From: an uncultured Archangium sp.
GTDB lineage: Bacteria; Myxococcota; Myxococcia; Myxococcales; Myxococcaceae
DNA: 64,000 bases
Direction of reading: 5' to 3'
Assembly (NCBI GenBank): GCA_903905455.1
Contig: CAIVGN010000129.1
Span: 31,600 to 95,599 of the forward strand
Under the pieces are notes generated by a model. The model was not told the origin of the DNA. It searched no databases and was given only the letters and a program-made list of their open reading frames with translations. Shown piece by piece: positions 49,377 through 64,000 of the stretch; positions within the stretch are counted from its first letter, which is position 1; each line of letters begins with the position of its first letter. A program made the translations under genes and the position numbers.

Positions 49377-52300
49377 ATGCCCACCAGCACGCGGGGACGA
49401 GATCCAGCCGTAGAAGAAGAGTTCCTCGGCGCGCTGTACAAGGGCGGTGAACTTCTCGCGTCAGGGAAGATCGTCGAGGCGCGCGAGCACCTCGAGAAGG
49501 CCCACGGCCTCGAGCCGAAGAACGAGAAGGCGCAGAACCTCCTGGGGCTGACCTACTTCAAGCTGGGGCTCTTCGATCGTGCGTCCGCGGTCTACGAGGG
49601 GCTGGTCAACGAGAACCCCACCGACGCCACGCTGCGGGTCAACCTCGGGCTGGTCTACCTGAAGACCAACAACCTCGAGCGGTGCATCAAGGAGTTCGAG
49701 ACGGCCACCGATCTCGAGCCGACGCACAAGAAGGCGCACAACTACCTCGGCCTCGCGCTGGCGCAGCAGGGCACCTACGGCAAGGCGAAGACGCACTTCG
49801 AGCTCGCCGGCTCCGACCAGATGGCCGACAAGATGGCGCGCGCGCTGGCGGCCCAGGTGACGCCCTCGGGTTCGCACGAGGCGGTGCCCCGGCAGCAGCC
49901 CAAGACCGTGGTCATCGGGGAAGAGGCGGAAGTCGCGCCGCCCCCGAAGGGCCCGCCGCCGCTGCCGGTGAAGGCGCACGTCGAAGAAGAGGCCATCGAG
50001 GTGATGAGCGACGAAGAGCTCCCCTCGGACGTCTACGTGGTGGCGGACGAGGTGCAGGTCGCGCCGGCGCCCTCGAGCCCCGGCCTGAACTCCGACTGGG
50101 GGACGCAACTCCGGGCGCGCCCGTCGGCGCCGGTGGAGATGCGCTTCGCCGAAGACGAGGGGCCGCCGGCGATCGCCGCGGAGGTGCCCGCCACCATCGA
50201 AGAGCTGCCGGTGCTGGAAGCCGTGGTCGAGGTGATGCCGCCCGACTCGGTGCCCGAGGCGCCCGCCGCGACGCCCGCGTGGCTGACCATGGAGGCCGCC
50301 GAGGCCACGCGCGCAGGCACCCGCACCGAGACGGCCTGGGTGACCGAGAGCGTCGCCGACGTCCCGCTCCACGCCGAGGCCGAACCGGCGCAGCCCCCGA
50401 GCGCGACCGACGCCCGCTGGGACGCGCCCGCCGAGGCGCACCCCGCCCCGCTCGCGGCCGAAGATGCCTCCTGGGAATCAGTGGCGCCGGCCAACGACGC
50501 GACCCCGGCGGAGGAACCCGAGACCATTCCGATGGACGACGCCGCCTGGGCGATCTCCGGCGCTGCGCCGGTGACCGAAGTGGCGCCGCTGGAGGCCGCC
50601 CCGCCGCAGAACGACGGCGCCTGGGCGAACGCGGAGATCACCGAAGCGCCGGCGCCGGAGTCGGCCTCGTGGGCCACCGCGGAAGGCTCGGCGGCGAACG
50701 AGCCGCAGCCCGAAATGCAGCCCCTGGCCGCCGACGAAGCGACCTGGGCGGCGCAGGCGGGGGCCGCCGAAGCGGCGCTGCCCATGATGGCCGAAGACGC
50801 AGCCTGGGGGGCCGAGGTGGCGCCTACCGAGGCCGTGGCGACGACGCCCGAGGACTCGACCTGGGCCACCGGAGCGCCTGAGGCCTCGCTGGCCGACGCC
50901 ATGCCGGCGGCCACGGAGACGTGGGCGACGGCAGGGACCGAAGCGATGCAGCCAGCGCCCGACGACGCGACGTGGGCCACCGGTGGTCCGCAGGAGCCCG
51001 TGCCCGGAGCGCTGCCGCCCACGCCCGATGACGCTGCGTGGGCGACCGGACCGATGGAGGCGCCCGTGGCCGAAGCGCTGCCCACCACGCCCGATGACGC
51101 GGCGTGGGCGACCGGACCGATGGAGGCGCCCGCTCCCGAAGCGCTGCAGGCCACGGCCGAAGACGCGGCGTGGGCGACCGCCGAGACGCAGGCCCCAGCC
51201 CCCGAAGCGCTCTCGGCCACGCCCGATGACGCGGCGTGGGCGACCGCCGAGACGCAGGCGCCTGCGCCCGAAGCGCTGCAAGCCGCGCCCGAGGATGCTG
51301 CGTGGGCGACCGCGACGCTCGAGACGACGCCTCCCGACGCGCAGCCGACGGTCCCTGATGAGGCGTCGTGGGCCGCGGCCGCCGAAGCGCCCGTGCCCGA
51401 GGCGCTCCCGACGAGCCCCGACGATGCGACGTGGGCCACCGGCACGGTGGAGGCCACGCCGAGCCCCGAGTGGGCGACGGACCAGGTCGAGGGCGTCAAC
51501 CCCACTCCGATCCCCGCGCCGGCGCCGCAACCCGAGTGGCAGGAAGCCCACTGGGCGACGCCCGCGACGCCGGTCGAGCCCGAGGTGGCCGCGGCGCCCG
51601 TCGACTTCATCGCGCCGCCCGAGCCTTCGGCGCCGTTGTCGATCACCGTCGAGGAACCCATCACGGCGCCCGCGCCTTCGGCGCCGCTGTCGATCACCGT
51701 CGAGGAGCCGATGGAGGCCCCCGCGCCGATGGCCCCTCCGGCGGGCTACACGCCGATGAGCCCGCAGAAGCTGGTGGATCTCGGCGCCTCGGGCTCGTGG
51801 GTGCAGGACTCTTCGGCGGGCCCCTTCCACATCAGCAGTGACGGCCTCGCGGTGACGGTGGCCGGCGAGATGCTGGTGCGCATGGTGGGCCTGGTCGCGG
51901 TCGTCGGCTCGGTGACGGTGAGCCCTGAGAATCGCCGCCGCCGCGGTCGCCCGACCTCGGAGCCGTTCGGTGAAGGCCAGGCGCAGCTGCAGCGCGTGCA
52001 GGGCCATGGCGTGCTGTACCTCGAGCCGGGCCGGGCCAAGTTCCACGCGATCGATCTCACCGACCAGAACGGGGTGAAGATCGACGACGACGGCGCCTAT
52101 CTCCGCGAGGACCTGGTGTTCGCCTTCGAGGAGCCGATCAGCTTCGACAACGGCAAGTTGACCGCCGAGGGCCAGTCGTTCGAGCTGGCGCACCTCAAGG
52201 GCAACGGCCGCGTGCTGCTGCAGCTCGACGGCACGCTGCGCGCGATGCCCATTCCGCTCGGGGCGCCGCTGGTGGTGCCGCTGCACCGGGTGGTGGGCTG

Positions 52301-52406
52301 GTTCGGGCGCGTGTCGCCGCGGCTCATGGGCTTTGGCGGGCGCGGCGCCGTGGAGCTGACCGGCGAGGGCTACGCCCTGCTGGGCACCCCGGTGGAGAAG
52401 GCCTGA
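49377..52406 (+). CDS. TPR protein with Trp-repeat linker and AIM24-like C-terminus
   Basis: 1009 residues of three parts. Residues 10-150 are TPR repeats. Residues about 340-730 are an acidic Ala/Pro-rich region with around 19 Trp units of the type DDAAWATG, the central ones in 22-residue register. Residues about 800-1009 are a beta-rich domain (AVTVAGEMLVRMVGLVAVVG, GVLYLEPGRAKFHAI, FDNGKLTAEGQSFEL) resembling AIM24. No signal peptide, so probably cytoplasmic. The stop overlaps the pgsA start. Function unknown. Confidence 0.8.
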   Translation: MPTSTRGRDPAVEEEFLGALYKGGELLASGKIVEAREHLEKAHGLEPKNEKAQNLLGLTYFKLGLFDRASAVYEGLVNENPTDATLRVNLGLVYLKTNNLERCIKEFETATDLEPTHKKAHNYLGLALAQQGTYGKAKTHFELAGSDQMADKMARALAAQVTPSGSHEAVPRQQPKTVVIGEEAEVAPPPKGPPPLPVKAHVEEEAIEVMSDEELPSDVYVVADEVQVAPAPSSPGLNSDWGTQLRARPSAPVEMRFAEDEGPPAIAAEVPATIEELPVLEAVVEVMPPDSVPEAPAATPAWLTMEAAEATRAGTRTETAWVTESVADVPLHAEAEPAQPPSATDARWDAPAEAHPAPLAAEDASWESVAPANDATPAEEPETIPMDDAAWAISGAAPVTEVAPLEAAPPQNDGAWANAEITEAPAPESASWATAEGSAANEPQPEMQPLAADEATWAAQAGAAEAALPMMAEDAAWGAEVAPTEAVATTPEDSTWATGAPEASLADAMPAATETWATAGTEAMQPAPDDATWATGGPQEPVPGALPPTPDDAAWATGPMEAPVAEALPTTPDDAAWATGPMEAPAPEALQATAEDAAWATAETQAPAPEALSATPDDAAWATAETQAPAPEALQAAPEDAAWATATLETTPPDAQPTVPDEASWAAAAEAPVPEALPTSPDDATWATGTVEATPSPEWATDQVEGVNPTPIPAPAPQPEWQEAHWATPATPVEPEVAAAPVDFIAPPEPSAPLSITVEEPITAPAPSAPLSITVEEPMEAPAPMAPPAGYTPMSPQKLVDLGASGSWVQDSSAGPFHISSDGLAVTVAGEMLVRMVGLVAVVGSVTVSPENRRRRGRPTSEPFGEGQAQLQRVQGHGVLYLEPGRAKFHAIDLTDQNGVKIDDDGAYLREDLVFAFEEPISFDNGKLTAEGQSFELAHLKGNGRVLLQLDGTLRAMPIPLGAPLVVPLHRVVGWFGRVSPRLMGFGGRGAVELTGEGYALLGTPVEKA
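50997..51455 (+). repeat. In-frame 66-bp tandem repeats (22-residue WAT units)
   Basis: About seven consecutive units encoding P-x-P-E-A-L-x-x-T-P-D-D-A-A-W-A-T-x-x-x-x-A, inside the TPR/AIM24-like gene. The Trp, the acidic pair and EAL are best kept. The copies are similar at DNA level, so unit number may vary between strains by slippage. More divergent units extend on both sides. Confidence 0.85.
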
Positions 52407-53222: not shown

Positions 53223-53297
53223 GCGGGAATAGCTCAGCGGTAGAGCATCGCCTTGCCAAGGCGAGGGTCGAGAGTTCAAATCTCTTTTCCCGCTCCA
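53223..53297 (+). tRNA. tRNA-Gly (anticodon GCC), CCA encoded
   Basis: Acceptor GCGGGAA pairs with TTCCCGC, discriminator T then CCA. The D-arm AGCTCAGCGGTAGAGC, anticodon arm CGCCTTGCCAAGGCG (GCC reads GGC/GGU Gly codons) and T-arm GAGAGTTCAAATCTCT are all normal. Its last 26 bases are duplicated at 63766-63791, marking it as the integration target. The gene stays intact because the element restores the 3' end. Confidence 0.97.
53272..53297 (+). repeat. attL, 26-bp direct repeat in the tRNA-Gly 3' end
   Basis: Covers the T-loop through CCA (GAGTTCAAATC...GCTCCA). It is identical to 63766-63791. It is oriented as expected for a tyrosine integrase that targets the T-arm/acceptor half of a tRNA gene. 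Confidence 0.92.
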
Positions 53298-53300
53298 TAA

Positions 53301-53328
53301 GCCCCCTGGAAACAGGGGGCTTTTTTTT
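53301..53328 (+). terminator. Intrinsic terminator just after tRNA-Gly
   Basis: GCCCCCTG/CAGGGGGC with GAAA loop followed by eight T. It lies inside the element, three bases after attL, so it came in with the island and now ends the tRNA transcript. It also lies two bases from the integrase stop. Confidence 0.93.
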
Positions 53329-53330
53329 GC

Positions 53331-54500
53331 CTACGCGCCCGTCTCCCGAATGTCTCTCGCTCGGGGCGTATCGAGGAGCTTCACCGCGTCCCGCTTCACG
53401 TCAGGGGACAGGTGGGAGTACCGCAGGGTCATCTCGATGCTCTCGTGCCCGAGCAGCTCCTGGACCGCCCTCAACGACACCCCGCGCATCACCAGGTGAC
53501 TGGCGAAGCTGTGGCGCAACCCGTGGGTGGTGATCCTCTTCGCGAGCCCGGCCTTCAAGCAGGTCTTGGGAACGACGTCCTTCAACATGCTGTGCGTCAG
53601 CCGCTTGCCCGCGCTGTCGCAGAAGACGTAGGCGCTCTTGAGCAGCGTGGCTGCTCGATGAGCCTTCAGCGTGGAGATCGCCTCGTCGGAGAGCGGCACG
53701 ATGCGATTCAGGCCGCCCTTCGGAGGACCTTCTTGGCCGTTCCAGAGCGTTCGACGGACGACGATCTGGCCGGTGACCAGGTCGATGTCCTCCCACTTGA
53801 GGGCCAACAACTCCCCCAGCCGCAGGCCGGTCTTGATCGCGACGATCAAGAAGGCGAGCCACTCCTTAGGCGCGGCCCTGATGAATCGCTCGGCCTCGTC
53901 GAAGCCCAGGAACATGTCGTCGGTGACGAAGTTCGTCTTCAGCTTGAACGCCTTCACCTTCGGCACCTTCTCGACCACGCCCCACTCCAGCGCGAGGTTG
54001 AGCATCTTCCGGAGCGTCATGACGTGGTTGTTGATGCTCTTCTTCTGGCAACCCTCGTCGAGCTTCTTCGCCTTGAAGTCCTCGATGTCGGCCGGGCCGA
54101 TCTGGTCGAGAGCCTTCGCGCCAAAGTACGGGATGAGGTGGACACGGAGCATCCACTCCTTCGCGTAGACGGTGCTCGGCTTGTTGTTCGTTTTCGAGAA
54201 GACCATGAACTGCTTCTCGAACTCGGCGACGGTCGGCACCGTCTTCTTCGTGACTGGGCGCGGCAGCACGCTCTCTCTCATGATGTGAGCAGCCCGCTCT
54301 TCGGCATACCGAGCAGTGTTCGTCTTCGAGCCGAGCGAGGACTTCCGCCGCTCTTGAAAGAACTCGCCGTTCGGCAGCTTCATCTTGATCTCGTACTCCC
54401 AGCCATCCGTCTTGCGCTTGCACTCCGGGCCGCACCTGCGCTTGGTGCAACCCACGACGTGGTCGATGCCCACCACGTAAGGCCTGACGTAAACAGCCAT
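53331..54500 (-). CDS. Tyrosine recombinase/integrase
   Basis: 389 residues. The N-terminal arm-binding part has a Cys pair (GCTKRRCGPEC, residues 17-27) and AP2-like beta strands (WEYEIKMKLPNGEFFQ). A SAM-like core-binding domain spans about 88-185. The catalytic domain follows with Arg227 (TGLRLGEL), His326-x-x-Arg329 (HGLRHSFASHL), His352 (LLGHESI) and nucleophile Tyr361 (TLRYSHL). It starts at the ATG sharing a base with the upstream stop, with AAGGAG 6 bases before. It catalyses insertion at tRNA-Gly. Confidence 0.95.
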   Translation of the reverse strand: MAVYVRPYVVGIDHVVGCTKRRCGPECKRKTDGWEYEIKMKLPNGEFFQERRKSSLGSKTNTARYAEERAAHIMRESVLPRPVTKKTVPTVAEFEKQFMVFSKTNNKPSTVYAKEWMLRVHLIPYFGAKALDQIGPADIEDFKAKKLDEGCQKKSINNHVMTLRKMLNLALEWGVVEKVPKVKAFKLKTNFVTDDMFLGFDEAERFIRAAPKEWLAFLIVAIKTGLRLGELLALKWEDIDLVTGQIVVRRTLWNGQEGPPKGGLNRIVPLSDEAISTLKAHRAATLLKSAYVFCDSAGKRLTHSMLKDVVPKTCLKAGLAKRITTHGLRHSFASHLVMRGVSLRAVQELLGHESIEMTLRYSHLSPDVKRDAVKLLDTPRARDIRETGA

Positions 54501-54958
54501 CACCGACTCCTTGTCGGCGGTGGCACTCGCCCTTCATTCAGGAAATCTAGAAGTTCACGACGGCGTACCAGGAGCCGTCTTCCGACGTGGACCGCGCCCG
54601 GCAGCTTTGCCCGCGACGCCATTGTGTAGATGGCGTTCGTGGTGGTCCGAAGAATGCCGGCGGTCTCCTCGACCGTCAGGAGCGCGGGCAGGTTGTTCAG
54701 GTCGCTGATGGTGACGCTGTTGACCTCGTCGCCATCGGGCTCATCGCCGTCACTGGCCTTCGTCCGCGTCTCCCGACGGCGGGAGGATTGCTGACGCCGT
54801 CCCCTGCCCTGCCGGTGCGGTTCACGTTGAAGAGCCTGCGGGGGCGGGGCCTCATCGACCAACACCGCCGCCGAGAAGCCGCCCGGCCCCCGGTGGAGGT
54901 CGTCCATGAAGGTGGACCGGATGTTGATCGATCGGAGCTGCGGGCGGATGAACGACAT
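54500..54958 (-). CDS. Excisionase-like HTH protein
   Basis: 152 residues. The last 60 are an excisionase/MerR-like HTH_17 domain: LLTVEETAGILRTTTNAIY, then GAVHVGRRLLVRRRELLDFL. The first 85 residues are charged, low in order, and unusual for an Xis, so the true start may be internal. Its stop overlaps the integrase start (TGATG), so both are made from one mRNA. It is the probable directionality factor, or a regulator of int. Confidence 0.8.
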   Translation of the reverse strand: MSFIRPQLRSINIRSTFMDDLHRGPGGFSAAVLVDEAPPPQALQREPHRQGRGRRQQSSRRRETRTKASDGDEPDGDEVNSVTISDLNNLPALLTVEETAGILRTTTNAIYTMASRAKLPGAVHVGRRLLVRRRELLDFLNEGRVPPPTRSR

Positions 54959-54966
54959 GCGGTGCC

Positions 54967-55113
54967 TCAGGTTCTTGTGCCGAGGGTGGGGTGGGAATTG
55001 CGCGTCACCACGCGCATGACCGCACGGAGCAGCGGCAGGTGGATTTGCTGGCTGACGAGCCAGGTCGGGGTGCCGAGGAGAAGGTGCAGACGTCGCGCCG
55101 TTGGCCGCAGCAT
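54967..55113 (-). CDS. Possible micro-ORF between PrimPol and excisionase genes
   Basis: 48 codons starting at an ATG directly abutting the PrimPol stop and ending eight bases before the excisionase start. The product is basic with Leu/Val-rich stretches (LHLLLGTPTWLVSQQIHL). The exact fit into the only gap of an otherwise overlapping operon argues for translation. The lack of homology and small size argue against. It may simply serve translational re-initiation. Confidence 0.4.
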   Translation of the reverse strand: MLRPTARRLHLLLGTPTWLVSQQIHLPLLRAVMRVVTRNSHPTLGTRT

Positions 55114-56385
55114 TCAGTGACCAAGACCGTTGAGGTGGACCGGAAGCAGTGGCAGCCGAGGGTCGATCTCAATTCGCGGGCTGAATCGCGCTCCGGGACG
55201 GTCAGCTCCAATGTGCCGCTGGCGGGCACGCCACACCGCATCGGAGGGAAGAGCATCGAGGACAAGCTCCACTGAGGGGCTGCCGCAGGAGTGTGCACAC
55301 GAAAACCCGCCAAGGTTTGCCGCCGAGGTGGAGGGCCAGATGATCGTGGAGCTGCTGGCCTCGAGACCGGAGGGCAGCGGTGTCGTGTGCGACTGGTTCC
55401 AGGGGCAGATCACGGCCAGCTTGCCCTCTCGGAGTCTGCGCCCGAGCATTCCCGCCTCTGAGAACGCCAGCTCCAAGAGGGACGCCGCCTGGTCCCCCTC
55501 CAAGCTGGCCGGAAGAGGGCCTCGCGGCGGCAATCCAGAGTGCGACAGCCCCACCTCCCGTTGGACAGCGCCTTGGTGAAGAAGCGGAGGCGGCAGACGA
55601 GCAAGCAGCGCCGCTAGGTTCAGCGTAGCGCCGTGGGTCTGAAGAACCTCCCGTGGAGAATCGGCCAGTGATCTCCGGGACCCGGGGTACCACGGGTGGT
55701 GAGGGCCATCGGTGGCGGGGTCAAAACCGGGCCCGACCAACCCCGCCAATGCCCCGAACACCGTGCGTGCGCTCGCGTAGGCAGATCTCCAGGCCAGCAC
55801 CGACTCCGGCGTCGAGGTGTCGAAGGGGGCTGCGAGGGGGAAGACCATTCGCCACTTTGGCAGCCCTTCCCTGTGACCGCCGCTTCGATGCCCAAGGGCA
55901 GCAAGCCCCAACGACATCAACACGGCCCAGAGGGTGAACCAGTCGCCGGTGCCATCGTCGTCGAGGATGAGCGCCGTCATTTGCACGGTGCTCGCATTGC
56001 ACCGGTGACCGTCCCTGTTCACGCTCGGGCTGTAGGCAATGCCCTCGCCCTTCGCCGCGACGGCCTGCGCCAGCATCAGGTGCCAGGCCCCGTACTCCGC
56101 CCAGGTGCCCACGCACGGGATTCCGCCGTGGGTCATGTCCACGCGCTTCCAAACCGTCGAGGTGATGCTGGTTACCGGCGGGCCCACAGCCCCAGCGAGT
56201 GCCTGGTGCGCCACCCCTGCGACGCCATCATCGAGTAGCGGAGTGAGGCTCATGAACTCCTGCTTCGCCCGCTCCTTCGAGACGGCGTCAGCGACGTTGA
56301 GTCCCTTCGACGCCAGAAACCGATTGAAGGCTTGGCGGTCGGTCTGGGCCTGAGCCGCAGCGAAACGAGCAAACTCGGCGTTCAT
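55114..56385 (-). CDS. PrimPol-type (archaeo-eukaryotic) primase-like protein
   Basis: 423 residues. Motif I is probably LILDDDGTGDW (Asp142-144), followed by GHREGLPKWRMVFPLAAPF (about 170-188; the KWRxVxPL region typical of bifunctional primase-polymerases) and DPATDGPHHPWYPGSR. A C-terminal zinc-binding set is CPWNQSH (Cys327, His333) with FSCAHSC (Cys363, Cys367). It would prime and copy the element's DNA. Its start overlaps the stop of the ATPase gene (ATGA), a classic primase-helicase pairing. Family call by motif only. Confidence 0.72.
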   Translation of the reverse strand: MNAEFARFAAAQAQTDRQAFNRFLASKGLNVADAVSKERAKQEFMSLTPLLDDGVAGVAHQALAGAVGPPVTSITSTVWKRVDMTHGGIPCVGTWAEYGAWHLMLAQAVAAKGEGIAYSPSVNRDGHRCNASTVQMTALILDDDGTGDWFTLWAVLMSLGLAALGHRSGGHREGLPKWRMVFPLAAPFDTSTPESVLAWRSAYASARTVFGALAGLVGPGFDPATDGPHHPWYPGSRRSLADSPREVLQTHGATLNLAALLARLPPPLLHQGAVQREVGLSHSGLPPRGPLPASLEGDQAASLLELAFSEAGMLGRRLREGKLAVICPWNQSHTTPLPSGLEASSSTIIWPSTSAANLGGFSCAHSCGSPSVELVLDALPSDAVWRARQRHIGADRPGARFSPRIEIDPRLPLLPVHLNGLGH

Positions 56386-57650
56386 GCCGTTCCTCGATTC
56401 TCTGCAACTCTGAATCGCCCCGTGTCGCCAACGGGCACGAAGTCACCAGCTCGGATGAGCGATTCCCAGATTCGGTTGAAGGTGCCGGCGTCCATGCCGT
56501 GACTTCCCTTCACCCCGTCCCGGACCTCCGTCTTGGTGAACGTGCCGCTACTGGTCTGCGCCACCCGCATCGCCCGAGAAACGAGACGTGCCTCGGCCTC
56601 CTTCCAGGTCTTGTCATGCACCTGGTCCACGAGGTCGGCGGCTACGAGACGTCCGTATTCGGCGACGTCCCAGCCAGCCGTCATGTGCTCACCCGAGATG
56701 GTGCTGGTCCCGTCGGCGACGGCGAAGAGCATGGACAGCCGGACTGCCATCACGGGGGTTCGATTCGTAGCTGCGGCAAGCAGGTCGGAGCTCTCCTGCC
56801 GGCCATGGTCGAGTCGGTAGCGAGCGTCATTGACCGCGACTGCCTCAGGCGAGAGCGACATGGGCTTGCCCATCACCGCCGACAACGCCGCTGCGACCCG
56901 GCCGAGAAGTTGCCGGTGCTGTTCGGCGTCAATGGCGGGACGGATTGGCAGCGGGTCGCCCCGGCCTCCCTGCACGAAGAGAAATCGATTCAGGAGTCCT
57001 GCCTGGATGAGATCTTCCGAGAGGCCCTTGCTCAGGTAGGCGGCGGTCGACGCCGCGATGATGGTGGCGGTCGCGTTGGTGCAGATCACCTTCCTCGACC
57101 TCGTCGAGTGCTTCAGCTCCTGCGGCATGTCGAAGGCCTTGAGCATGAAGCCGATGAGATCCCCCGCTTGGTCCCTGCCCGCCTTGCCCAGCAGCGCCCC
57201 GAATTCGTCGAAAAGGAAGACGGCCCTCCGTCCGGTCTGGATGTTCGGCCGAGCCTTCTTGTCTGCGCCTTCGGGGAACCACTCGCGGTCAGCGAGCACG
57301 TCGATGAGCCCTTCACCGGAGCCGGAGCCGTTCACGATCTCCAGGGGATCCGGCTCGCCTGCCTGCTGCGACCTCGGAGCCAACGGTTCGAGAATCAGCG
57401 ACCTCGCGTCGTCCACGCTCGTCGTCTTGCGTGAGCGACCGGTCTCACCGAGCAAGCACAGGTACAGAATCGGTCGCATCAACTGTGGACCCCACGGGAT
57501 CCCGACGCTGGCGGCGGCGAGCGCCGAGAGGACCCCGACGATGCCCGCCCAGATGAATTCCTCCGGAGCCTCCGTCGTGTCCGCCACGAGGTTGTAGTAG
57601 TCGGCGATGACGCCGAACCACGCGTTCTCGGGGAATTTCGGCCGGCTCAT
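56382..57650 (-). CDS. DUF3987/YfjI-like replicative ATPase
   Basis: 422 residues. Walker A is GETGRSRKTTS (Lys75), Walker B is RRAVFLFDEFGALLG (Asp148-Glu149), and a sensor-like block is STAAYLSKGLSEDLIQAGLLNRFLF-type, split by short loops. The C-terminal 110 residues look like a winged-helix segment (FTKTEVRDGVKGSHGMDAGTF). This family accompanies primases in phages, satellites and plasmids and likely unwinds the element's origin. It overlaps both neighbours (57650/57647 and 56385/56382). Confidence 0.75.
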   Translation of the reverse strand: MSRPKFPENAWFGVIADYYNLVADTTEAPEEFIWAGIVGVLSALAAASVGIPWGPQLMRPILYLCLLGETGRSRKTTSVDDARSLILEPLAPRSQQAGEPDPLEIVNGSGSGEGLIDVLADREWFPEGADKKARPNIQTGRRAVFLFDEFGALLGKAGRDQAGDLIGFMLKAFDMPQELKHSTRSRKVICTNATATIIAASTAAYLSKGLSEDLIQAGLLNRFLFVQGGRGDPLPIRPAIDAEQHRQLLGRVAAALSAVMGKPMSLSPEAVAVNDARYRLDHGRQESSDLLAAATNRTPVMAVRLSMLFAVADGTSTISGEHMTAGWDVAEYGRLVAADLVDQVHDKTWKEAEARLVSRAMRVAQTSSGTFTKTEVRDGVKGSHGMDAGTFNRIWESLIRAGDFVPVGDTGRFRVAENRGTA

Positions 57651-57889
57651 GGCGCACCCGAACCTGGCGAGCGCCGCCCAGCAACGGGCTGTGAACTGGT
57701 GGGCCCCTCTCGCTCCGGATCTCCGTCTTCAAGCAGTCCGGAAGCACGAAGCGCAACGAGCGCACGCTGCCCGGCCATGCCGCGTACCTTCTCTCCGCGT
57801 GCGACCTTCGCGATGGTTTTGGGATCGACTCCAGCCTCGACGGCGAGCCATCTCACCGTTGCTGCATCAAGCTTGATTGGTTGGTTCAT
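57647..57889 (-). CDS. Small helix-turn-helix protein
   Basis: 80 residues. Residues 8-50 read VRWLAVEAGVDPKTIAKV and GMAGQRALVALRASGLL, a Cro/LacI-like HTH. The C-terminal 25 residues are Pro/Ser/Gly-rich. First gene of the overlapping replication operon, sharing ATGA with the ATPase gene. It could be the repressor or replication-control protein of the element. Confidence 0.7.
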   Translation of the reverse strand: MNQPIKLDAATVRWLAVEAGVDPKTIAKVARGEKVRGMAGQRALVALRASGLLEDGDPEREGPTSSQPVAGRRSPGSGAP

Positions 57890-57985
57890 TGTGCGGCCCT
57901 CGAACTAGCGAGGAACGCGCACCCTGCGAGCGTGGACCGGGGAAAACCAAAGCACTTCGGTGGGTTCCGATCGTCTCAGCCAGTT

Positions 57986-58004
57986 GGCGTAAGAAACTTA
58001 CGCC
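57986..58004. other. Perfect hairpin over the stop of the zinc-finger gene
   Basis: GGCGTAAG (57986-57993), AAA, CTTACGCC (57997-58004). The TAA stop of the zinc-finger gene lies within it. There is no T-run, so an operator for the following operon or a weak terminator is equally possible. Confidence 0.5.
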
Positions 58005-58648
58005 GAGTCCTCGTCGGGCATTTCCGGGGCCCGAACCGATTCGTCCTGCCGAAGATCGGTGAACACCTTGTTGAGCCGGGCGTCGTTCTTGATCATCTTC
58101 TCGAACGCGGCGCACGGAGTCCGCGCCTGGCACGCCCGGCAGGTCTTGAGGTGCCTCTTGAGCTTCTGCCCCAAACGGTGGCGCTTCTCCTCGGCCGTCG
58201 CCCGCTTCACGCCACGATTGTTCTTCCGGCTCGTGCATTCGTCGGAGCAACAAAGGTCGCTCTTCTTGTGGACCGGGAAGCGCCTGCCGCACTCGATGCA
58301 CATCTTCACGTTCGTGAAGACGGAGTTGAACGTCGGCCTGATTCGGTTCGAGAAGAATTCCGCCCAGGCGGCCGGCTCAGGAAGACGAGCAGCGAACGCG
58401 CCCGCGTCAACTGCGAGTTGGCGGAGAACCCGATTCGATTCCGCCTTGGTGCGTGCCCTCTTGAGGTTCCATTCGACAGCGGCGGGTGGAGGCGACCCGT
58501 CCTTCCCAAGAGCCGCGTCCAACTCCGCCACCAGACCATCAAGCTCCTCGACACCGAGAGCGACCTCGCGATCTATGCCTCGCTGAAGCGCCGCCGGACT
58601 CTTCCGCTCAGCGTTTTGCCTCTTTCGGTCCCTCTTCGGTGTCGCCAT
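57998..58648 (-). CDS. Cys-rich zinc-finger protein of the island
   Basis: 216 residues, unknown function. The N-terminus is basic (MATPKRDRKRQNAERKS). A helical middle (about 55-110) includes NLKRARTKAESNRVLRQL. A treble-clef-like finger MCIECGRRFPV followed by LCCSDECTSRKNNRG (CxxC...CxxxC) is at about 130-160. A last Cys cluster is CRACQARTPC (about 180-190). Such fingers bind nucleic acid in many mobile-element proteins. It lies 108 bases upstream of the small HTH gene and may head the left operon. Confidence 0.72.
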   Translation of the reverse strand: MATPKRDRKRQNAERKSPAALQRGIDREVALGVEELDGLVAELDAALGKDGSPPPAAVEWNLKRARTKAESNRVLRQLAVDAGAFAARLPEPAAWAEFFSNRIRPTFNSVFTNVKMCIECGRRFPVHKKSDLCCSDECTSRKNNRGVKRATAEEKRHRLGQKLKRHLKTCRACQARTPCAAFEKMIKNDARLNKVFTDLRQDESVRAPEMPDEDSA

Positions 58649-59048
58649 TGGCGATCGTGAGGCTACCGTTGACAGGGACACGGGGACACGGGGACGACGG
58701 TCGCTCCGATGCGACGTTGGGACGAGGGCCGTGGGGAAAGGCCGATCTAGGCCGTGCTGGTCGGGACGAACGGGACACGGGGCCAAAGGGATCGCAAAGG
58801 AGAGCTTCAAGAGAGGAGGAGGGAAAAGGAGATCAACTACGTCCTCTTCTTCTTCATCTGCTTGACGATCTTTCTGCCCACCCCGCGTCAGCTTGTACCC
58901 GGCGTCCCCACGTCCCGTTTGGTCCCCGTGCAGGCCGGCTCGCCGTTCCAGACCTCGAACACCGAAGAGGGCAAAACGCCGCTGCGCCACTCGATGACGA
59001 AGCCAACTTCTTGTTCCCACCCGACGCTGGCGGGCGGACGATCGGTGC
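58649..59048. other. Divergent intergenic region with GGGACACG repeats, candidate origin/control region
   Basis: No convincing gene. GGGACACG occurs in tandem at 58675-58690 with a partial third unit, again at 58772-58779, and related GGGAC sites lie on the opposite strand around 58903-58928. A polypurine stretch (58805-58830) and a TTGACG follow. It lies between the leftward replication operon and the rightward arm. Iteron-type origin or shared operator is an inference. Confidence 0.45.
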
Positions 59049-59927
59049 ATGAACAGTGGCACTGAGAACACCACCGCACGCGCCAACGCCAGCCGCGCTA
59101 ACGGCATGAAGTCGAACGGCCCGGTGAGCAACGAAGGCAAGACGACGGCCGCCATGAACGGCCTGAAGCACGGGCTGGCCTCCACCTCGGTGTTGCTGCC
59201 CTCCGAGACCATCATCGACTACCAGACCAACATCGACGCATGGGCCACGACCCTTCACCCCTCGTCCCCCGGCGAGGTCGAGATGGTGGCACGCATCGCC
59301 GACTGCAACTTCCGGCTGCGACGTCTTCAACGGCTGGAAGACGCCCACCTGGCAGCGAGCCTGGAGGCCAAGGTCAAGAGCACCGGCACCTTCAAGGTGC
59401 TCAACATCGCCCAGAACGCGAGCCTGGGCATGACGGCCATGATCTCCACGATCGCGGACATCAGGACACCGTGCACTTCCGAGTATCTGGCCAACCTGCT
59501 CACGCCCATCGCGGCCGTGATCGAGATGGTGATTGCAGCAGACCTGCCAGTGGCCGTGACGGTGCCGATCGAGCAGGTCCACGACGAGCTGAAGGCCCAG
59601 GCGGAAGCCGAGTTGGTGCCCCCAGAGATCTTCACCAAGCTCTTCCACATTGGCGGCACGGTGGTCGAGGCCCTCGACGTCAAGGTGGCCGAGATGGAGG
59701 TCATGCTCGCGGCCGAACGCGAGCGGATCGCCGACGACCTGCTCCTGGGCGACGACAAGGAACTCATGAAGTTCGAGCGTCACCGCGCCCGCATCAACAA
59801 GGCCCTCGACTCAGAGCTGGCCCGCATGAAGGTGGTCCGTGAGCTGTCTCAGGGCGCGTCAGGTTCGTCCGTTGGGCCAATTCTCGTGGAGTTGAAGGTC
59901 ATCGGACAGAGGGCGTCACCGTGCTGA
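59049..59927 (+). CDS. NGxKHGL-family hypothetical protein
   Basis: 292 residues. The N-terminus has the pattern RANGMKSNGPVSNEGKTTA then MNGLKHGLAS, seen in many mobile-element and environmental proteins that read SNGPxTxEGKxxxxxNxxKHGL. Long helices follow, with RLRRLQRLEDAHLAASLEAK and EAEMEVMLAAERERIADD-type coiled-coil segments. No catalytic motif is seen. A structural, packaging or DNA-binding role is conceivable but unsupported. It overlaps the next gene by seven bases. Confidence 0.7.
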   Translation: MNSGTENTTARANASRANGMKSNGPVSNEGKTTAAMNGLKHGLASTSVLLPSETIIDYQTNIDAWATTLHPSSPGEVEMVARIADCNFRLRRLQRLEDAHLAASLEAKVKSTGTFKVLNIAQNASLGMTAMISTIADIRTPCTSEYLANLLTPIAAVIEMVIAADLPVAVTVPIEQVHDELKAQAEAELVPPEIFTKLFHIGGTVVEALDVKVAEMEVMLAAERERIADDLLLGDDKELMKFERHRARINKALDSELARMKVVRELSQGASGSSVGPILVELKVIGQRASPC

Positions 59928-60124
59928 CCAGGAAGATCGCAGCCGAAGGGTTGCTGTCGGAGGACGCCCAGTCCCAAGAGATCGCCAGGTGCAAGGCGCT
60001 GGTGGAGTCCACGGTGTCGAACCACCTTGAGGAACTCCGGGCCCTCACAGCTCGGATGCGGGCGCTCAGGACCAAGCTCGATGATGACGCCGTGCCCGCT
60101 CAGGGCCTCCTGGCGAAGCTGTAG
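59921..60124 (+). CDS. Coiled-coil microprotein
   Basis: 67 residues starting at a GTG within the upstream gene. It is almost entirely helical (SEDAQSQEIARCKALVES, NHLEELRALTARMRALRTK) with heptad-like Leu spacing. It is likely a small partner of the NGxKHGL protein, with which it is translationally coupled. No family recognised. Confidence 0.6.
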   Translation: MLTRKIAAEGLLSEDAQSQEIARCKALVESTVSNHLEELRALTARMRALRTKLDDDAVPAQGLLAKL

Positions 60125-60550
60125 TTCGTCACCGACGCGAAGACCGCCTGCTCGCCTAGCCCGAGGGCTATCGAAACAGGAACAGGCACCCCGGCATGGG
60201 GCACCGTGGTACCCGAAATCCTGGGGATTCTGAGCGAAGACCCCTCCCCACCGTGTGGCGCACATGCCCCTTCGCGCACGAGGGGTGGAGCACCTCCGGC
60301 ACAGGGATTTTTCGGGGGCAGTTGCTGGGCTGACCCGGACGCTCGGATCTCACTGTTCACCGCCTCGGCTGCCCGAGCAAGACCGGGCCTGTTTTCGGCA
60401 TAAGGATTTGGAGGCAGGTCTCTACCGGCCCCTGCTGGCTCCGTCGTCATCGGGACTTTCCCGTTGGTGATGTAGCCGGCCCTGTTGCGCCCCGTGGCGC
60501 TCTTCTGCGCCACGAGGGTCACGCCCTCCGTGTGCGCTTCGGAGGTTGAC
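60125..60550. other. Intergenic stretch before the sigma-like gene
   Basis: About 425 bases without a supported gene. A perfect hairpin CGTGGCGC/GCGCCACG with TCTTCT loop lies at 60493-60514. Other short GC palindromes occur near 60190-60215. Any promoter of the sigma-like gene should be here, but no standard -35/-10 pair stands out. Confidence 0.5.
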
Positions 60551-61204
60551 GTGGACGAGAACGACATCAGCGAGAAGTTCGGCATCATGGTGAAGAGGGG
60601 CATCTTCAGGTCGGTGGCCCGGTTCATCAGCAGCGATACCGAAGAGCGGCTTCAGGAAGGCGTCTGCCAGGCGTTCGAGCTTTACAGGCAGCATGCTCTT
60701 CGAGGGGTGGAGTTGAACGCTCCGGTGCTGGTCTGCATCTGCCGCCGTCGAGCGGTGGACTTGAGCCGCCATCTGGTGAGGGGCCAGCACAGCGTGAAGG
60801 ACCCGCTTGAACCTCGGGCCTACCACCAGGGACGACTGGAGCTGATTCACCTGGATGGAGTCCCCGATCCTGAAGGCGAACTCGACGGCGAGGGGGACTC
60901 TGAGCTCGAAGCCTCGATTTTCGACAAGGAGAGCGCCAACCCGACCGCAAAGATCATCTCCAACATCAGCTTGGCGATGTGGGTGGCGAAGCTGCCGAAG
61001 GACGACTTGGCGTTGATCTCGATGCGGGTCGAGGGCTTCACGCTCACGGAGATCGCCAACGAGGTGGGCAAGTCGATCACCGTCATCTGCCAGAGACTCC
61101 AACACCTTGGCCAAGACCTTGCCCAGCACGCGCAGCTTCCTGTTCCCAAGAGAAGTCGCAGGCCGCGAAGGTCCACGGTGCCAAACCACATGGCCGCAGC
61201 GTGA
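60551..61204 (+). CDS. Divergent sigma-70-like factor of the island
   Basis: 217 residues. Region 4 is clear at about 147-188: LPKDDLALISMRVEGFTLTEIANEVG then ITVICQRLQHL, split by a short turn. Region 2 is weak: FISSDTEERLQEGVCQAFEL and LVCICRRRAVDLSRHL fit its helices in order. A 40-residue acidic linker joins them. The GTG start at 60551 has GGAGG five bases upstream. The stop overlaps the TM microprotein start (GTGA). An element-borne sigma is rare. It could redirect host polymerase to island or helper-phage promoters. Confidence 0.75.
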   Translation: MDENDISEKFGIMVKRGIFRSVARFISSDTEERLQEGVCQAFELYRQHALRGVELNAPVLVCICRRRAVDLSRHLVRGQHSVKDPLEPRAYHQGRLELIHLDGVPDPEGELDGEGDSELEASIFDKESANPTAKIISNISLAMWVAKLPKDDLALISMRVEGFTLTEIANEVGKSITVICQRLQHLGQDLAQHAQLPVPKRSRRPRRSTVPNHMAAA

Positions 61205-61335
61205 AGGCGGCACTGATGCCGTGGATCAGGCGCATGGTCCGCTCACCCGTCTTCCTGCAGGTGGTAGTCGTCGTCCTCCAACTTGCTGCGGCTCAGATCG
61301 CGAAGCATGAGCACGAGAAGCGGGCGGAAAAGTGA
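61201..61335 (+). CDS. Single-TM microprotein coupled to the sigma-like gene
   Basis: 44 residues from a GTG that overlaps the sigma stop. A basic N-terminus (VKAALMPWIRRMVR) is followed by one hydrophobic helix (SPVFLQVVVVVLQLAAAQIA) and a charged tail (KHEHEKRAEK). The overlap and the terminator six bases downstream support a real gene. Position recalls sigma/anti-sigma pairs, but at 44 residues it lacks a known anti-sigma domain. Confidence 0.6.
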   Translation: MKAALMPWIRRMVRSPVFLQVVVVVLQLAAAQIAKHEHEKRAEK

Positions 61336-61340
61336 ATTCA

Positions 61341-61376
61341 GCGGCCGGAGCCTGAAGTGGCTCCGCCGCCTTTCTT
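61341..61376 (+). terminator. Intrinsic terminator after the sigma-like/TM pair
   Basis: GCGG-C-CGGAGCC pairs with GGCTCCG-CCGC (one bulged C) around TGAAGT, followed by CTTTCTTA. It separates the sigma unit from the four-gene cassette. Confidence 0.78.
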
Positions 61377-61540
61377 AGCCCTCATGAACCGGGGCAACGC
61401 TGCGACCGACCACAACAAGGGGAAGAGCGGCAGCCGAGATGGCGGCACGCTGACGGAACGTGCCCGTCAGCGTCCTATCTCGATGGAGGGCGCAGGTTTG
61501 CGCCGCGTGGATCCGGTCTCCGACGTAGAGTCCGTTTGCG

Positions 61541-62329
61541 ATGACCCGGCTTGTGTTCAGCGTGCGCGTACGGCTTCTGCCGACCGAGCTCGGCGGCAGG
61601 AAGGGGCCGATCATGAGCGACTACCGCCCGAGCTGGAATCTCGGGAACAAGTGGCTGGGCGAGCCAACCATCAACGATGGTCGGGTCTTCTTGGAAGGCT
61701 GCACCGAGATCGCACCGGGCACCGAGGGTCTCGCCCGCCTCGAGCCGCTCGCCCCTGAGTTCTGGGGTGGCGTTCGCGTTGGCTCGGTGATCGCCATGCA
61801 GGAGGGCAACCATGTCGTGGGACACGCGACGGTCTTGAGCGTCGTCTCACGGCCAGAGAACTTCACCTCAGAGGTTCTCGTCTTCGTGGACCAGGCTCGG
61901 CAGTTCTGCGACTTCGTCGAGAAGGCCAGCGACTACCCCCTGCTCCCGCGTCTTTCGGGTGCACGGCAGCGGCTGCTCGAACTCTACCGAACGGGGTCCG
62001 CTCTGCCGCAGGTCGAGCCGCCCGAGGGGATTGACGCAGGGCCCAATCCAGAGAAGCCCAAGAGCTGGGTTGGCTTCGACAAGTTCGAGTTCTATTGGGA
62101 GGTGTTCGACCCGTACGTCGATGAGGCACCAGTTACCGGTTCGCTCTCAGACGATCTTCTCGACGTCTACTTCGACCTGCGTCGCGGCCTCGACCTCTGG
62201 GACAAGGACGTGCCGAAGGCCGCCGCCGTTTGGGAATGGCGTTTCCACTTCGACATGCACTGGGGAGATCACGCGATTGATGCACTCCGGGCACTTCACC
62301 GAGCTTGCCGCGAGGCTGGTTCACCATGA
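61541..62329 (+). CDS. EF-Tu domain III-like/DUF5063 fusion protein
   Basis: 262 residues. Residues 1-105 mirror EF-Tu domain III: FSVRVRLLPTELGGRKGPIM, SDYRPSW, and IAMQEGNHVVGHATVLSVV match the strands around YLLxxxEGGRxxP, YRPQF and GxTVGAGVV. The GTPase domains are absent. Residues about 175-258 match DUF5063: VTGSLSDDLLDVYFDLRRGL, AVWEWRFHFDMHWGDHA and DALRALH. First gene of the terminal cassette, coupled to the next by ATGA. A decoy of, or partner for, translation factors or toxins is inference. Confidence 0.72.
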   Translation: MTRLVFSVRVRLLPTELGGRKGPIMSDYRPSWNLGNKWLGEPTINDGRVFLEGCTEIAPGTEGLARLEPLAPEFWGGVRVGSVIAMQEGNHVVGHATVLSVVSRPENFTSEVLVFVDQARQFCDFVEKASDYPLLPRLSGARQRLLELYRTGSALPQVEPPEGIDAGPNPEKPKSWVGFDKFEFYWEVFDPYVDEAPVTGSLSDDLLDVYFDLRRGLDLWDKDVPKAAAVWEWRFHFDMHWGDHAIDALRALHRACREAGSP

Positions 62330-62799
62330 AGGCCGGAAGGAGAAGCCACTCGATGCGGCCGATTTCCGAGGAGCCAATCGTCTTTGGCCGGGTGGTCGCT
62401 GAACGCGAATACAAGGTCGGCCGCGAGACGCTTCTTCTCCAGATCGGGACGCCGCACCGAGCGAGTTGGAAGACTGATTTCTACTGCCCGATCCGCCTTG
62501 TTCGCGCAGGAAAGCCGCAGCTCAAGCGGGTCTTCGGCGTCGACTCAGTGCAGGCGCTGATGCTCGCGTTCGACCTCGTCAAAGCCCTGTTGGAGACCAC
62601 GTCGCCCAAGATCAGGTGGTTCGCAGGCGAGGGGCCTGGCGACGTCGGGATCTACAAGAGGCTCACGACCGGCCTCGGAATGGAGTTCGACCGGGGCATC
62701 GAGCGCCTCGTAGATGAAGCGGTTCTCAACCGAAGTCGAGAGTTGGAGAGGCTGCACAAGAAGAAGATCGCTCGAAGGGCGAAGAACGGTGCCGCGTGA
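62326..62799 (+). CDS. DUF6968-like protein
   Basis: 157 residues. The core VVAEREYKVGRETLLLQIG, DFYCPIRLV and GVDSVQALMLAFDLV matches the AER...CPxRL...GVDxxQALxLA pattern of DUF6968 proteins, small proteins often found next to DUF5063-type genes. The C-terminus is basic and helical (RELERLHKKKIARRAK). It overlaps both neighbours (ATGA before, GTGA after). An internal Met at 62353 could be an alternative start. Function unknown. Confidence 0.62.
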   Translation: MKAGRRSHSMRPISEEPIVFGRVVAEREYKVGRETLLLQIGTPHRASWKTDFYCPIRLVRAGKPQLKRVFGVDSVQALMLAFDLVKALLETTSPKIRWFAGEGPGDVGIYKRLTTGLGMEFDRGIERLVDEAVLNRSRELERLHKKKIARRAKNGAA

Positions 62800-63323
62800 G
62801 AAAGAAAGCCACCGAGAAGAAGAAGTCGAAGACAGATACCATCGCTGAGCCGACTTACAGCCTCGGGTTCGAGAGCCTCATTCGCGAGGTTACGGCGGAT
62901 CCTGACATTCGGGTTTGGGCCGTCGTTCACCTGCTCTCGCAGGCCGACAAGCTGAACCAAACCGAGCGACAACTCGCGGCAACCTGCGTCGCTCTTGCAC
63001 TTGTCCGGCAGCGAAGGCTCTTGGAGGTGGCGTCGGAGCTGCTGGATGAGGCGGCCGCCAGCGGACCCAGACACCTTGTAATGGAAGGGCAGGCGCAGCT
63101 CGCTGAGGTACGCGGTGACCTCATAAAGGCGAGCGCACTTCGACATCTCGCAGCCGGCGCGGCGGACGCGCCTTCTGCGGCAGAAGCTCTGCAAAGCGAA
63201 TGGGCGAGCCAAGAAATCAAGTGGCGTGCGCAGGACTCCTCAGCGGAGGGGAAGCGTAAGCGGCTCGATGCCTACTTCAAGGCTCACAAGAAGCTCTCCG
63301 GCCGAACCGAGGAGGAACCGTGA
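62796..63323 (+). CDS. Unknown helical protein of the terminal cassette
   Basis: 175 residues from a GTG overlapping the previous stop. Very basic N-terminus (VRKKATEKKKSKTDT), then helical repeats (LIREVTADPDIRVWAVVHLL, LAATCVALALVRQRRLLEV) that resemble HEAT/TPR hairpins, and an Arg/Lys-rich tail. No family recognised. Overlaps the next gene by GTGA. Confidence 0.6.
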   Translation: MRKKATEKKKSKTDTIAEPTYSLGFESLIREVTADPDIRVWAVVHLLSQADKLNQTERQLAATCVALALVRQRRLLEVASELLDEAAASGPRHLVMEGQAQLAEVRGDLIKASALRHLAAGAADAPSAAEALQSEWASQEIKWRAQDSSAEGKRKRLDAYFKAHKKLSGRTEEEP

Positions 63324-63613
63324 AGTACGAGTTGCCCGATGAAGACACGCTCGCGAAGTACATGCACCTGCTCCAGGCGGTGCTCATCGCCATTCGCACG
63401 AGTCCGGATCCGGAGGCGGCGGACCTGGCCGATGCGGTCCACAACCTCCCCGACCTGCTCATGCGCTGGTCGGACGCGAATGAGGATTGGCAGGCAGGTG
63501 CACTTCGCCGGATCGAGGCGAAGCACCCTCGGTGGAAGGGCCACTTCACCGGCATCATGGAACGAGGAGCGCCTCCAGGCTGGCAGCTCAAGTGGACGAA
63601 GCCCGAGAAGTAA
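63320..63613 (+). CDS. Unknown small protein ending the terminal cassette
   Basis: 97 residues from a GTG overlapping the previous stop. Helical N-terminus (LAKYMHLLQAVLIAIRTS), then ADLADAVHNLPDLLMRW, a pattern I associate with small proteins found near toxin/immunity genes (recollection, not a search). The C-terminus is Trp/Lys-rich (PPGWQLKWTKPEK). It stops 150 bases before attR. Confidence 0.6.
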   Translation: MKYELPDEDTLAKYMHLLQAVLIAIRTSPDPEAADLADAVHNLPDLLMRWSDANEDWQAGALRRIEAKHPRWKGHFTGIMERGAPPGWQLKWTKPEK

Positions 63614-63615
63614 CG

Positions 63616-63633
63616 CCGTCTCCCGAATGTCTC
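63616..63633. repeat. 18-bp copy of the integrase 3' end
   Basis: CCGTCTCCCGAATGTCTC is identical to 53339-53356, which encodes the last codons of the integrase (RDIRET). Here it has no integrase around it. It could be a remnant of another integrase gene from an earlier insertion, or an arm-type integrase binding site. The following 130 bases to attR hold no recognised feature. Confidence 0.75.
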
Positions 63634-63765
63634 CCGAGCCAGGGACGGCGTGAGCAAGATCGGGACATGTCGAGCAAGTGCACCTGCGAGACCGAATCCC
63701 TCGAAGGACCGGGCGTGGGGGTGAAAGGCGAGTGCCATCACCGTGTTGGCCAAGTGCCTTCGAGG

Positions 63766-63791
63766 GAGTTCAAATCTCTTTTCCCGCTCCA
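63766..63791 (+). repeat. attR, second 26-bp copy of the tRNA-Gly end
   Basis: Identical to 53272-53297. Upstream of the repeat the similarity to the tRNA stops, so this is only a tRNA fragment. Confidence 0.92.
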
Positions 63792-63805
63792 GGATGAAGT
63801 GAAGA

Positions 63806-63830
63806 AGCCCCGGTAACCCCGGGGCTTTTT
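63806..63830 (+). terminator. Intrinsic terminator after attR
   Basis: AGCCCCGG/CCGGGGCT with TAACC loop and T5. Probably the original chromosomal terminator of tRNA-Gly before the island inserted. Confidence 0.8.
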
Positions 63831-63902
63831 CATTTGCGGGGTCCGAGGGGTTCATCGCCCAGCGGAACCTGTCAACGTGAATGAGACACCGGCGTTCTGC
63901 AT

Positions 63903-64000
63903 TTAGGCTCGAGCGATCACGCTCCCGTTCTCGGACTTGGGCTTGTTGATCCACGCCGCCGTCTGCAGGGCTGGCGGAGTTGGCGCGCCGAGCACAAAGC
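63903..64000 (-). CDS. Possible 3' end of a chromosomal gene
   Basis: Open frame entering from the right edge and ending at TAA (63905-63903). The visible residues include VLGAPTPPALQTAAWIN and KPKSENGSVIARA. The first part faintly recalls the start of redoxin domains, but the frame stops soon after, so it may be a decayed gene or chance. Too short to assign. Confidence 0.3.
   Translation of the reverse strand, partial: FVLGAPTPPALQTAAWINKPKSENGSVIARA

Follow-up and report, generated by a model that had tools for sequence, protein, structure and literature searches.

An integrative element in a glycine tRNA gene

The stretch analyzed here (the window) comprises 64,000 nucleotides of contig CAIVGN010000129.1 (forward strand, 31,600 to 95,599) from an uncultured Archangium sp., and it contains an island of 10.5 kb that has a glycine tRNA gene as its target. 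An earlier note on the same DNA had described a satellite-like element in a probable myxobacterium, and the source genome indeed falls in one family with Myxococcus sp. RHSTA-1-4. The tRNA scan found the target gene, tRNA-Gly(GCC), intact on the plus strand (53223..53297). Its 3′ end forms the 26-bp left attachment (attL) core (53272..53297, plus strand), which is repeated exactly as the right (attR) core (63766..63791, plus strand). A hairpin with a T-run follows attL on element DNA (53298..53328, plus strand; fold of −20.7 kcal/mol for 53298-53332) and is identical in G070, a genome of the same genus. This element-borne hairpin likely stands in for the tRNA's own terminator, while the likely original terminator, also a hairpin, lies in the host flank (63792..63859, plus strand; 77-91% identity to the corresponding flanks of G067, G069 and G070). 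Restoration of the tRNA by inserted islands is a general rule according to the Islander paper.

A tyrosine integrase is encoded next to the tRNA gene (53331..54503, minus strand; PF00589, 123.7 bits) in an open frame that keeps the conserved motifs. Its gene overlaps by 4 nt that of an AlpA/Xis-like helix-turn-helix (HTH) protein of the HTH_17 type (54500..54958, minus strand; PF12728 at 38 bits, above the cut-off, and phrog_66). The exact repeats, intact tRNA and adjacent integrase noted earlier were confirmed, and the excisionase-like protein and primase-ATPase pair were borne out by family searches and, for the PrimPol, by its predicted fold. Capsid, tail and conjugation genes, whose absence had also been claimed, were not recognized by PHROG, Pfam or NCBIfam: no structural match was significant by PHROG in 12 element open reading frames (ORFs), and no relaxase or conjugation gene was found by Pfam (10 ORFs) or NCBIfam (10 ORFs). 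Judged from its sequence, the integrative element is real and well delimited in tRNA-Gly(GCC), with a predicted replicon of its own.

Both ends of the element carry the motif GTCTCC[CA][GA]AATGTCTC, about 43 nt inside attL and 132 nt ahead of the attR core. Repeat analysis placed the left copy, GTCTCCCGAATGTCTC, at 53341..53356 and the right copy at 63618..63633, both on the plus strand. An 18-nt direct repeat, CCGTCTCCCGAATGTCTC, is present at both ends, compared with at most 12 nt shared by shuffled ends. When up to one mismatch was allowed, the 16-nt kernel occurred twice in the genome, both times at the element ends, and twice in G070, once at each end of a remnant described below; none of the four remaining genomes of the genus contained it. 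We regard these arm-type repeats as putative arm sites of the integrase.

orf292 and the end signature in other islands

The gene orf292 (59049..59927, plus strand) encodes a predicted helical protein of 292 aa that homologue searches also found in other islands. Foldseek matched its AlphaFold model (mean predicted local distance difference test score, pLDDT, 80.3) to nothing at E ≤ 0.001, neither in PDB nor in BFVD, and its profile reached nothing better among PDB sequences than a designed binder at E 0.04. Fold and profile searches gave no support for orf292 as a small terminase, an absent match not excluding that role. Fourteen further relatives were present in the protein collection, and matches, some partial, occurred in 34 of 195 Myxococcota genomes, the source genome included.

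We inspected 20 orf292 loci (L006, L085-L103) of the 39 listed places outside the source genome. An integrase of the family linked to that of the window (F1) or an integrase-like gene (F5, called from weak PHROG or Pfam matches) lay near orf292 in 18 of them. In seven (L087, L089, L091, L093, L094, L098 and L103) a piece of a tRNA was repeated in the same orientation across orf292, delimiting islands of 7.6-11.2 kb; in L094 the island is found 5′ of its tRNA, and the comparison gave no exact core. These seven resemble the window element in having orf292, an integrase or integrase-like gene, a tRNA repeat and no recognized structural gene, but they differ in their other replication genes and cargo, have no PrimPol and lack the GGGAC array found upstream of orf292 in the window. 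At E ≤ 0.001, their 67 ORFs matched integrases, HTH proteins and excisionases, HNH nucleases, a transposase, DUF932, DUF3800, NYN and unnamed families; no structural, packaging or conjugation/relaxase family was among those listed (25 of 29 PHROG families).

These islands bear on the idea that the element is a prophage that has lost its structural genes. Tyrosine integrases, sigma-like proteins and replication genes occur in phages too, as the PHROG matches illustrate. Yet PHROG recognized neither virion structural genes nor a significant structural remnant in the element, PrimPol and orf292 have no relative in phage records, and, because seven small orf292 islands lack structural families among those listed, small size looks normal for the class. 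Descent by such decay is very improbable.

The arm-type repeat recurs in four of the orf292 islands. Counting mismatches against GTCTCCNGAATGTCTC, the L089 island at tRNA-Glu has an exact copy at both ends, and the islands L087, L091 (tRNA-Asp) and L093 (tRNA-Pro) have one mismatch at the right end and one to three at the left; their right-end copies fit the wider GTCTCC[CA][GA]AATGTCTC exactly. The motif is thus found in islands at four kinds of tRNA, as an exact copy on the right and with up to three mismatches on the left. The right copy lies 127-132 nt from the core in six islands (those of the window, G070, L087, L089, L091 and L093), the right 150 nt of which can be aligned and contain conserved blocks. 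No GTCTCC motif was found within two mismatches at the ends of L059, L098, L103 and L150. The ends of L098 and L103 share other short repeats, which at 11 nt are no longer than those produced by shuffling, and in L006 no direct repeats of at least 20 nt were found.

A search with GTCTCCMRAATGTCTC yielded 61 sites in 43 of the 195 genomes and none with the reversed control. Context was inspected for 31 sites in 30 loci: five lie 44-80 nt after an intact tRNA, 16 are followed by a T-loop-like sequence at +131 to +134, and ten have neither context, one of the ten being the known right end of the G070 remnant, which the pattern missed. At random positions, a match anywhere in the tested 85 nt occurred in 24 of 620 cases. 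A gapped pattern (the motif, 126-138 nt, then GTTCRA) gave 30 sites in 27 of 195 genomes (26 besides the source genome) and none in the control, and the spacing observed was solely 132-135 nt. On these comparisons, the element belongs to a widespread myxobacterial island class with an end signature common to many members. With the 16-base signature, such islands can be mapped in a simple way even when none of their genes is known, and the pairing of integrases with arm sites can be tested directly.

An additional exact end motif was seen near position 16135 of L087 on the reverse strand (G061:C1:4255251), about 2.7 kb past the distal core of that island; it may mark where a neighboring second island ends. 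Near orf292 in L090 (3515-6172), an AHH nuclease toxin-like gene stands beside an Imm11/SUFU immunity-like gene, and two families of this locus, F8 and F11, turn up again at other orf292 loci.

The integrase clade and the state of the tRNA-Gly site

The integrase had matches at E ≤ 1e-30 in 93 of the 195 Myxococcota genomes, the source genome included. We scanned 1.5 kb on each side of 19 integrase loci listed from other genomes for tRNAs. tRNA-Gly(GCC) adjoins eight of the 19, among them the seven best matches, and all six loci of a sister clade of 45% identity (L112-L117) adjoin tRNA-Leu(TAA). Other tRNAs were near three loci, and two had none within this distance on either side. The two clades form a natural pair for the question of how a tRNA is chosen. 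By coordinates, the integrase also sits at the pgsA-linked tRNA-Gly in G094, G104 and, as a fragment, G096, as it does in G070. The earlier note had proposed to look for the same gene order at tRNA-Gly elsewhere: the integrase clade recurs at tRNA-Gly(GCC), but the full order was not found there, because the helicase-PrimPol-orf292 arrangement of RHSTA-1-4 adjoins tRNA-Met and has another integrase. At L100:14308-15566 (G032), an integrase of the tRNA-Gly clade, broken by a TAG stop, adjoins tRNA-Gly, and orf292 is found at a distance of about 4 kb; this locus is a decaying relative from another family.

An 892-bp query from pgsA to tRNA-Gly matched in part in all 59 sampled genomes of the family, and one match extended into the 3′ end of the tRNA in 37 of the 59, the source genome included. 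The site differs among three genomes of the same genus. In G067 the core is directly followed by the host-type terminator, in a sequence that extends ~1.7 kb downstream; this is an empty-type junction. G070 has a 1.5-kb att-bounded remnant (L060:8125-9709) that keeps both element ends and encloses only the 93-aa C-terminus of the integrase, 98% identical to that of the window, together with a gene resembling tetratricopeptide repeats (TPR-like) by eye. In G069 the tRNA 3′ end is present twice, 5.6 kb apart (L059:2241-7862), and its first copy is likewise followed by the host-type terminator. The segment between the copies encodes a reverse transcriptase (best PADLOC match RT-Protease_XI), a PDC-M01A/PtuA-like ATPase and a PDC-M01B/PtuB-like HNH protein, likely a defense cassette, and no integrase match was found in it. 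The site query matched G068 and G071, the last two genomes of the genus, only weakly.

Identity between the window and G070 is 96% over the left 300 nt of the element and 90% over the right 154 nt, compared with 81% in the pgsA region. This suggests that the elements arrived separately or that their ends are under strong constraint.

Since the tRNA-Gly of a sister species holds a predicted anti-phage cassette, the site is tied to defense. A resident defense or cargo island that persists at a variable tRNA-Gly on account of its cargo, its integrase and replication genes being vestigial, would accord with the integrase-less G069 cassette, the 1.5-kb remnant in G070 and the overlaps among the four right-hand genes of the window element. 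We consider this improbable: the integration and replication genes of the window are open, the integrase and PrimPol motifs are kept, and PADLOC recognized no defense family in nine element proteins, so that defense cargo was rejected as an assignment.

The final 141 bp of the window (63860-64000), with which its contig ends, match the beginning of contig C9 (reverse strand) exactly and are perhaps an insertion sequence. C9 was rejected as an unoccupied site and is taken as a repeat, because its identity to the window begins only 68 bp to the right of attR.

The replication module and a candidate origin

The product of 55114..56385 (minus strand) is predicted to be a PrimPol with an archaeo-eukaryotic primase (AEP) fold. 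The fold comparison covered chiefly residues ~72-268, and the protein has DxD at 142/144, SGGH at 168-171, FDP at 221-223 and a C-terminal Cys/His motif; it had no Pfam or PHROG match. The adjacent gene (56382..57650, minus strand) encodes a DUF3987 ATPase (PF13148, 45.5 bits, above the cut-off; also matched in PHROG), a predicted replicative helicase with no PDB sequence match.

A PrimPol profile matched at E ≤ 1e-3 in 12 of 195 genomes and below 1e-60 in three: the source genome, Myxococcus sp. RHSTA-1-4 (G126) and G059. In the RHSTA-1-4 element, the helicase (47%) and PrimPol (49%) are adjacent on one strand and orf292 (27%) is divergent from them, the same layout as in the window. Apart from L006, a contig scan with the PrimPol alignment returned a single match, weak and partial, from a Chthonomonas metagenome-assembled genome (L007). 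Contigs of equal size in independent protein searches (11675 and 17094 bases for orf292 and the sigma-like gene, 5979 for PrimPol and orf292) suggest that these genes may travel together.

Upstream of orf292, GGGAC/GTCCC copies are concentrated in an array (58675..58930). The 500 nt upstream of orf292 contain ten copies in the window and 15 in RHSTA-1-4, compared with maxima of six and eight in shuffles, respectively, and the window array is the richest 400-nt stretch of the 64 kb, with ten copies against three in the next separate stretch. The array was present in both loci with PrimPol and helicase, and no enrichment was seen at 20 orf292 loci whose genomes gave no PrimPol match; it was accordingly rejected as a general feature of orf292 islands. 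We propose the array at ~58.7-58.9 kb as a candidate replication origin.

A separate locus, L146:6968-11815, has a 1615-aa ORF within which GGGAC/GTCCC copies form a dense array; the tRNA-Gly integrase clade is present in this genome too. By eye, the first part of the ORF resembles a DUF927-type helicase and the part after it a PolA-like polymerase.

Comparison with known elements and the probable mode of spread

P4-like satellites and phage-inducible chromosomal islands (PICIs) follow a logic of int, AlpA, primase-helicase and cargo, with packaging-interference, small terminase or capsid-size genes as hallmarks. The window element shares this logic but has no match to a packaging, capsid-size or terminase family, a result that short divergent genes could escape; the P4/PICI likeness drawn in the earlier note was not demonstrated. 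Relaxase or conjugation genes, which would mark an integrative and conjugative or mobilizable element, are likewise absent among the matches.

The model of phage-inducible chromosomal minimalist islands (PICMIs), known from Vibrionaceae, comprises PF00589 or other recombinase profiles, PF05930/PF12728, PF13148/PF19263 and fis in PMC10803314, where integration at fis is called a hallmark and the average size is 6.7 kb. PF00589 int, PF12728 AlpA-type HTH and PF13148 prim are co-localized in the window element too, which is also small and has direct-repeat ends, a 4-nt int overlap and no recognized capsid-remodeling gene. It differs in its target (tRNA-Gly, not fis), its size (10.5 kb) and the gene that overlaps int, which is the HTH_17 gene itself and not a separate iolg; it adds a separate PrimPol, a sigma-like protein and orf292, and its host is a member of Myxococcota. 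Because fis integration is a hallmark and the site is tRNA-Gly, we rejected PICMI membership.

Kazlauskas et al. 2018 (PMC5862659) describe PrimPol elements in tRNA genes, including a third class (class iii) without phage or conjugation genes; "Myxococc" has no occurrence in the main text. The window element has an AEP primase between att repeats and, integrase and excisionase aside, no phage or conjugation homologues. A tRNA target (many cases there), direct repeats, the AEP primase and a DUF3987-type ATPase (some there) are shared; in the window, however, PrimPol and ATPase are separate adjacent genes and the former lies outside Pfam and PHROG. It fits class iii by description. "PICMI-like content without fis" or "cryptic PrimPol integrative element" is a better label for its content than P4/PICI-like.

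A cryptic integrative plasmid-like element of class iii, which would replicate as a circle and spread by conjugative mobilization, transformation or cell-to-cell exchange, is a real possibility. Its content class is equal, and the scarcity of phage-borne relatives and the lack of a phrog_2 terminase match in the source genome, both set out below, would suit it. In contrast, no relaxase match was found in the element or among the families listed for the 67 sister-island ORFs, and the size of the relatives (7.6-11.2 kb) and the int/AlpA/prim set resemble satellites.

To the reading we prefer, an integrative element with its own replicon that spreads as a satellite in borrowed phage particles, we give an even chance, and satellite behavior appears the likeliest mode of spread. 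The att repeats, restored tRNA, hairpin after attL, paired terminal repeats and recurrence at four kinds of tRNA can be read directly from the DNA, and the PICMI satellite model uses the same Int, AlpA and prim profiles. The content also agrees with the general description of a satellite in PMC13376191 (att-bounded, 7-20 kb, with integrase, regulatory and replication genes and no structural genes). Under the direction of the HTH_17 protein, the integrase, bound to the end arm sites and the 26-bp core, would cut out a circle of 10.5 kb, which PrimPol and the ATPase would replicate from the GGGAC array. Control of expression or of partner recognition may fall to orf292 and the sigma-like protein; the four genes of the right-hand operon would serve as cargo, perhaps in defense, and helper phage particles would package the element.

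Several results weigh against satellite spread from such a replicon. Family searches recognized no helper, packaging or capsid-remodeling gene in the element; the earlier claim is supported for a mobile island with integrase, Xis-like protein and PrimPol-helicase, and so far not for a satellite in the strict sense. A helper in the source genome was sought through phrog_2, the sole terminase family searched, which had no match there, although the control gave matches in 11 of 14 genomes. Viral contigs contained neither the right-end signature nor a relative of PrimPol, orf292, the sigma-like protein or the helicase, and 50,697 phage records contained no relative of the first three (the integrase was outside both searches) and one weak helicase match at 22% identity. 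The known myxophage Mx8 was rejected as a relative, with no protein match below E 0.015 and no end motif within two mismatches. The full replication arrangement has one other strong case in 195 genomes, with a different integrase. The array evidence comes from two loci; L020, a PrimPol relative in G059 where no orf292 match was found, has no array, and L146 has one inside a long ORF without a PrimPol. In L087, L091 and L093, the case rests on the motif, because exact words common to both ends are no longer than in shuffles.

A bolder and doubtful extension is that phage satellites of Myxococcota form a large family not yet described, with orf292 and shared arm sites (GTCTCC[CA][GA]AATGTCTC at both ends, ~132 nt from the distal att core) as its defining marks. 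Its ends would stay constant while replication modules and cargo are swapped, the window being a version with its own PrimPol-helicase replicon and a GGGAC-iteron origin. Within this family reading, the ends and orf292, not the replicon, would be the heritable identity of the element. No myxobacterial satellite was listed in the open-access literature searched, most subscription papers being outside its scope. If a helper were found, a satellite-helper model would be gained for myxobacteria, a social predator. A myxophage review describes Mx alpha particles of ~35 nm, too small for their own 80-kb unit; as speculation, such particles could serve small islands.

Remaining genes and neighboring sequence

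Upstream of the helicase gene and coupled to it, 57647..57889 (minus strand) encodes an 80-aa protein that looks HTH-like by eye (best match phrog_5471, E 0.016), and 57998..58648 (minus strand) encodes a 216-aa protein with Cys motifs (best match phrog_1271, HNH, E 0.001). A 67-aa ORF across the end of orf292 (59921..60124, plus strand) is a possible gene, seen as an open frame only. The sigma-like factor of the earlier note (60551..61204, plus strand; 217-aa start as in P0038) is an open frame with likeness to sigma factors of the extracytoplasmic function (ECF) type, but this assignment is weak, with PDB matches at chance level only.

The four right-hand cargo genes, all on the plus strand, overlap one another: a DUF5063 gene (61541..62329; PF16702, E 1.7e-27), a DUF6968 gene overlapping it (62305..62799; PF22302, E 3.1e-8), a 175-aa ORF (62796..63323) and a 97-aa ORF (63320..63613), the last two each an open frame with a 4-nt overlap. 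The DUF5063 gene was found in 23 pieces of other genomes, and the remaining cargo genes were not found alongside it. Outside the element, the window encodes a 1009-aa repeat protein upstream of pgsA (49377-52406) that by eye has a TPR-like start and many DDAxWAT near-repeats.

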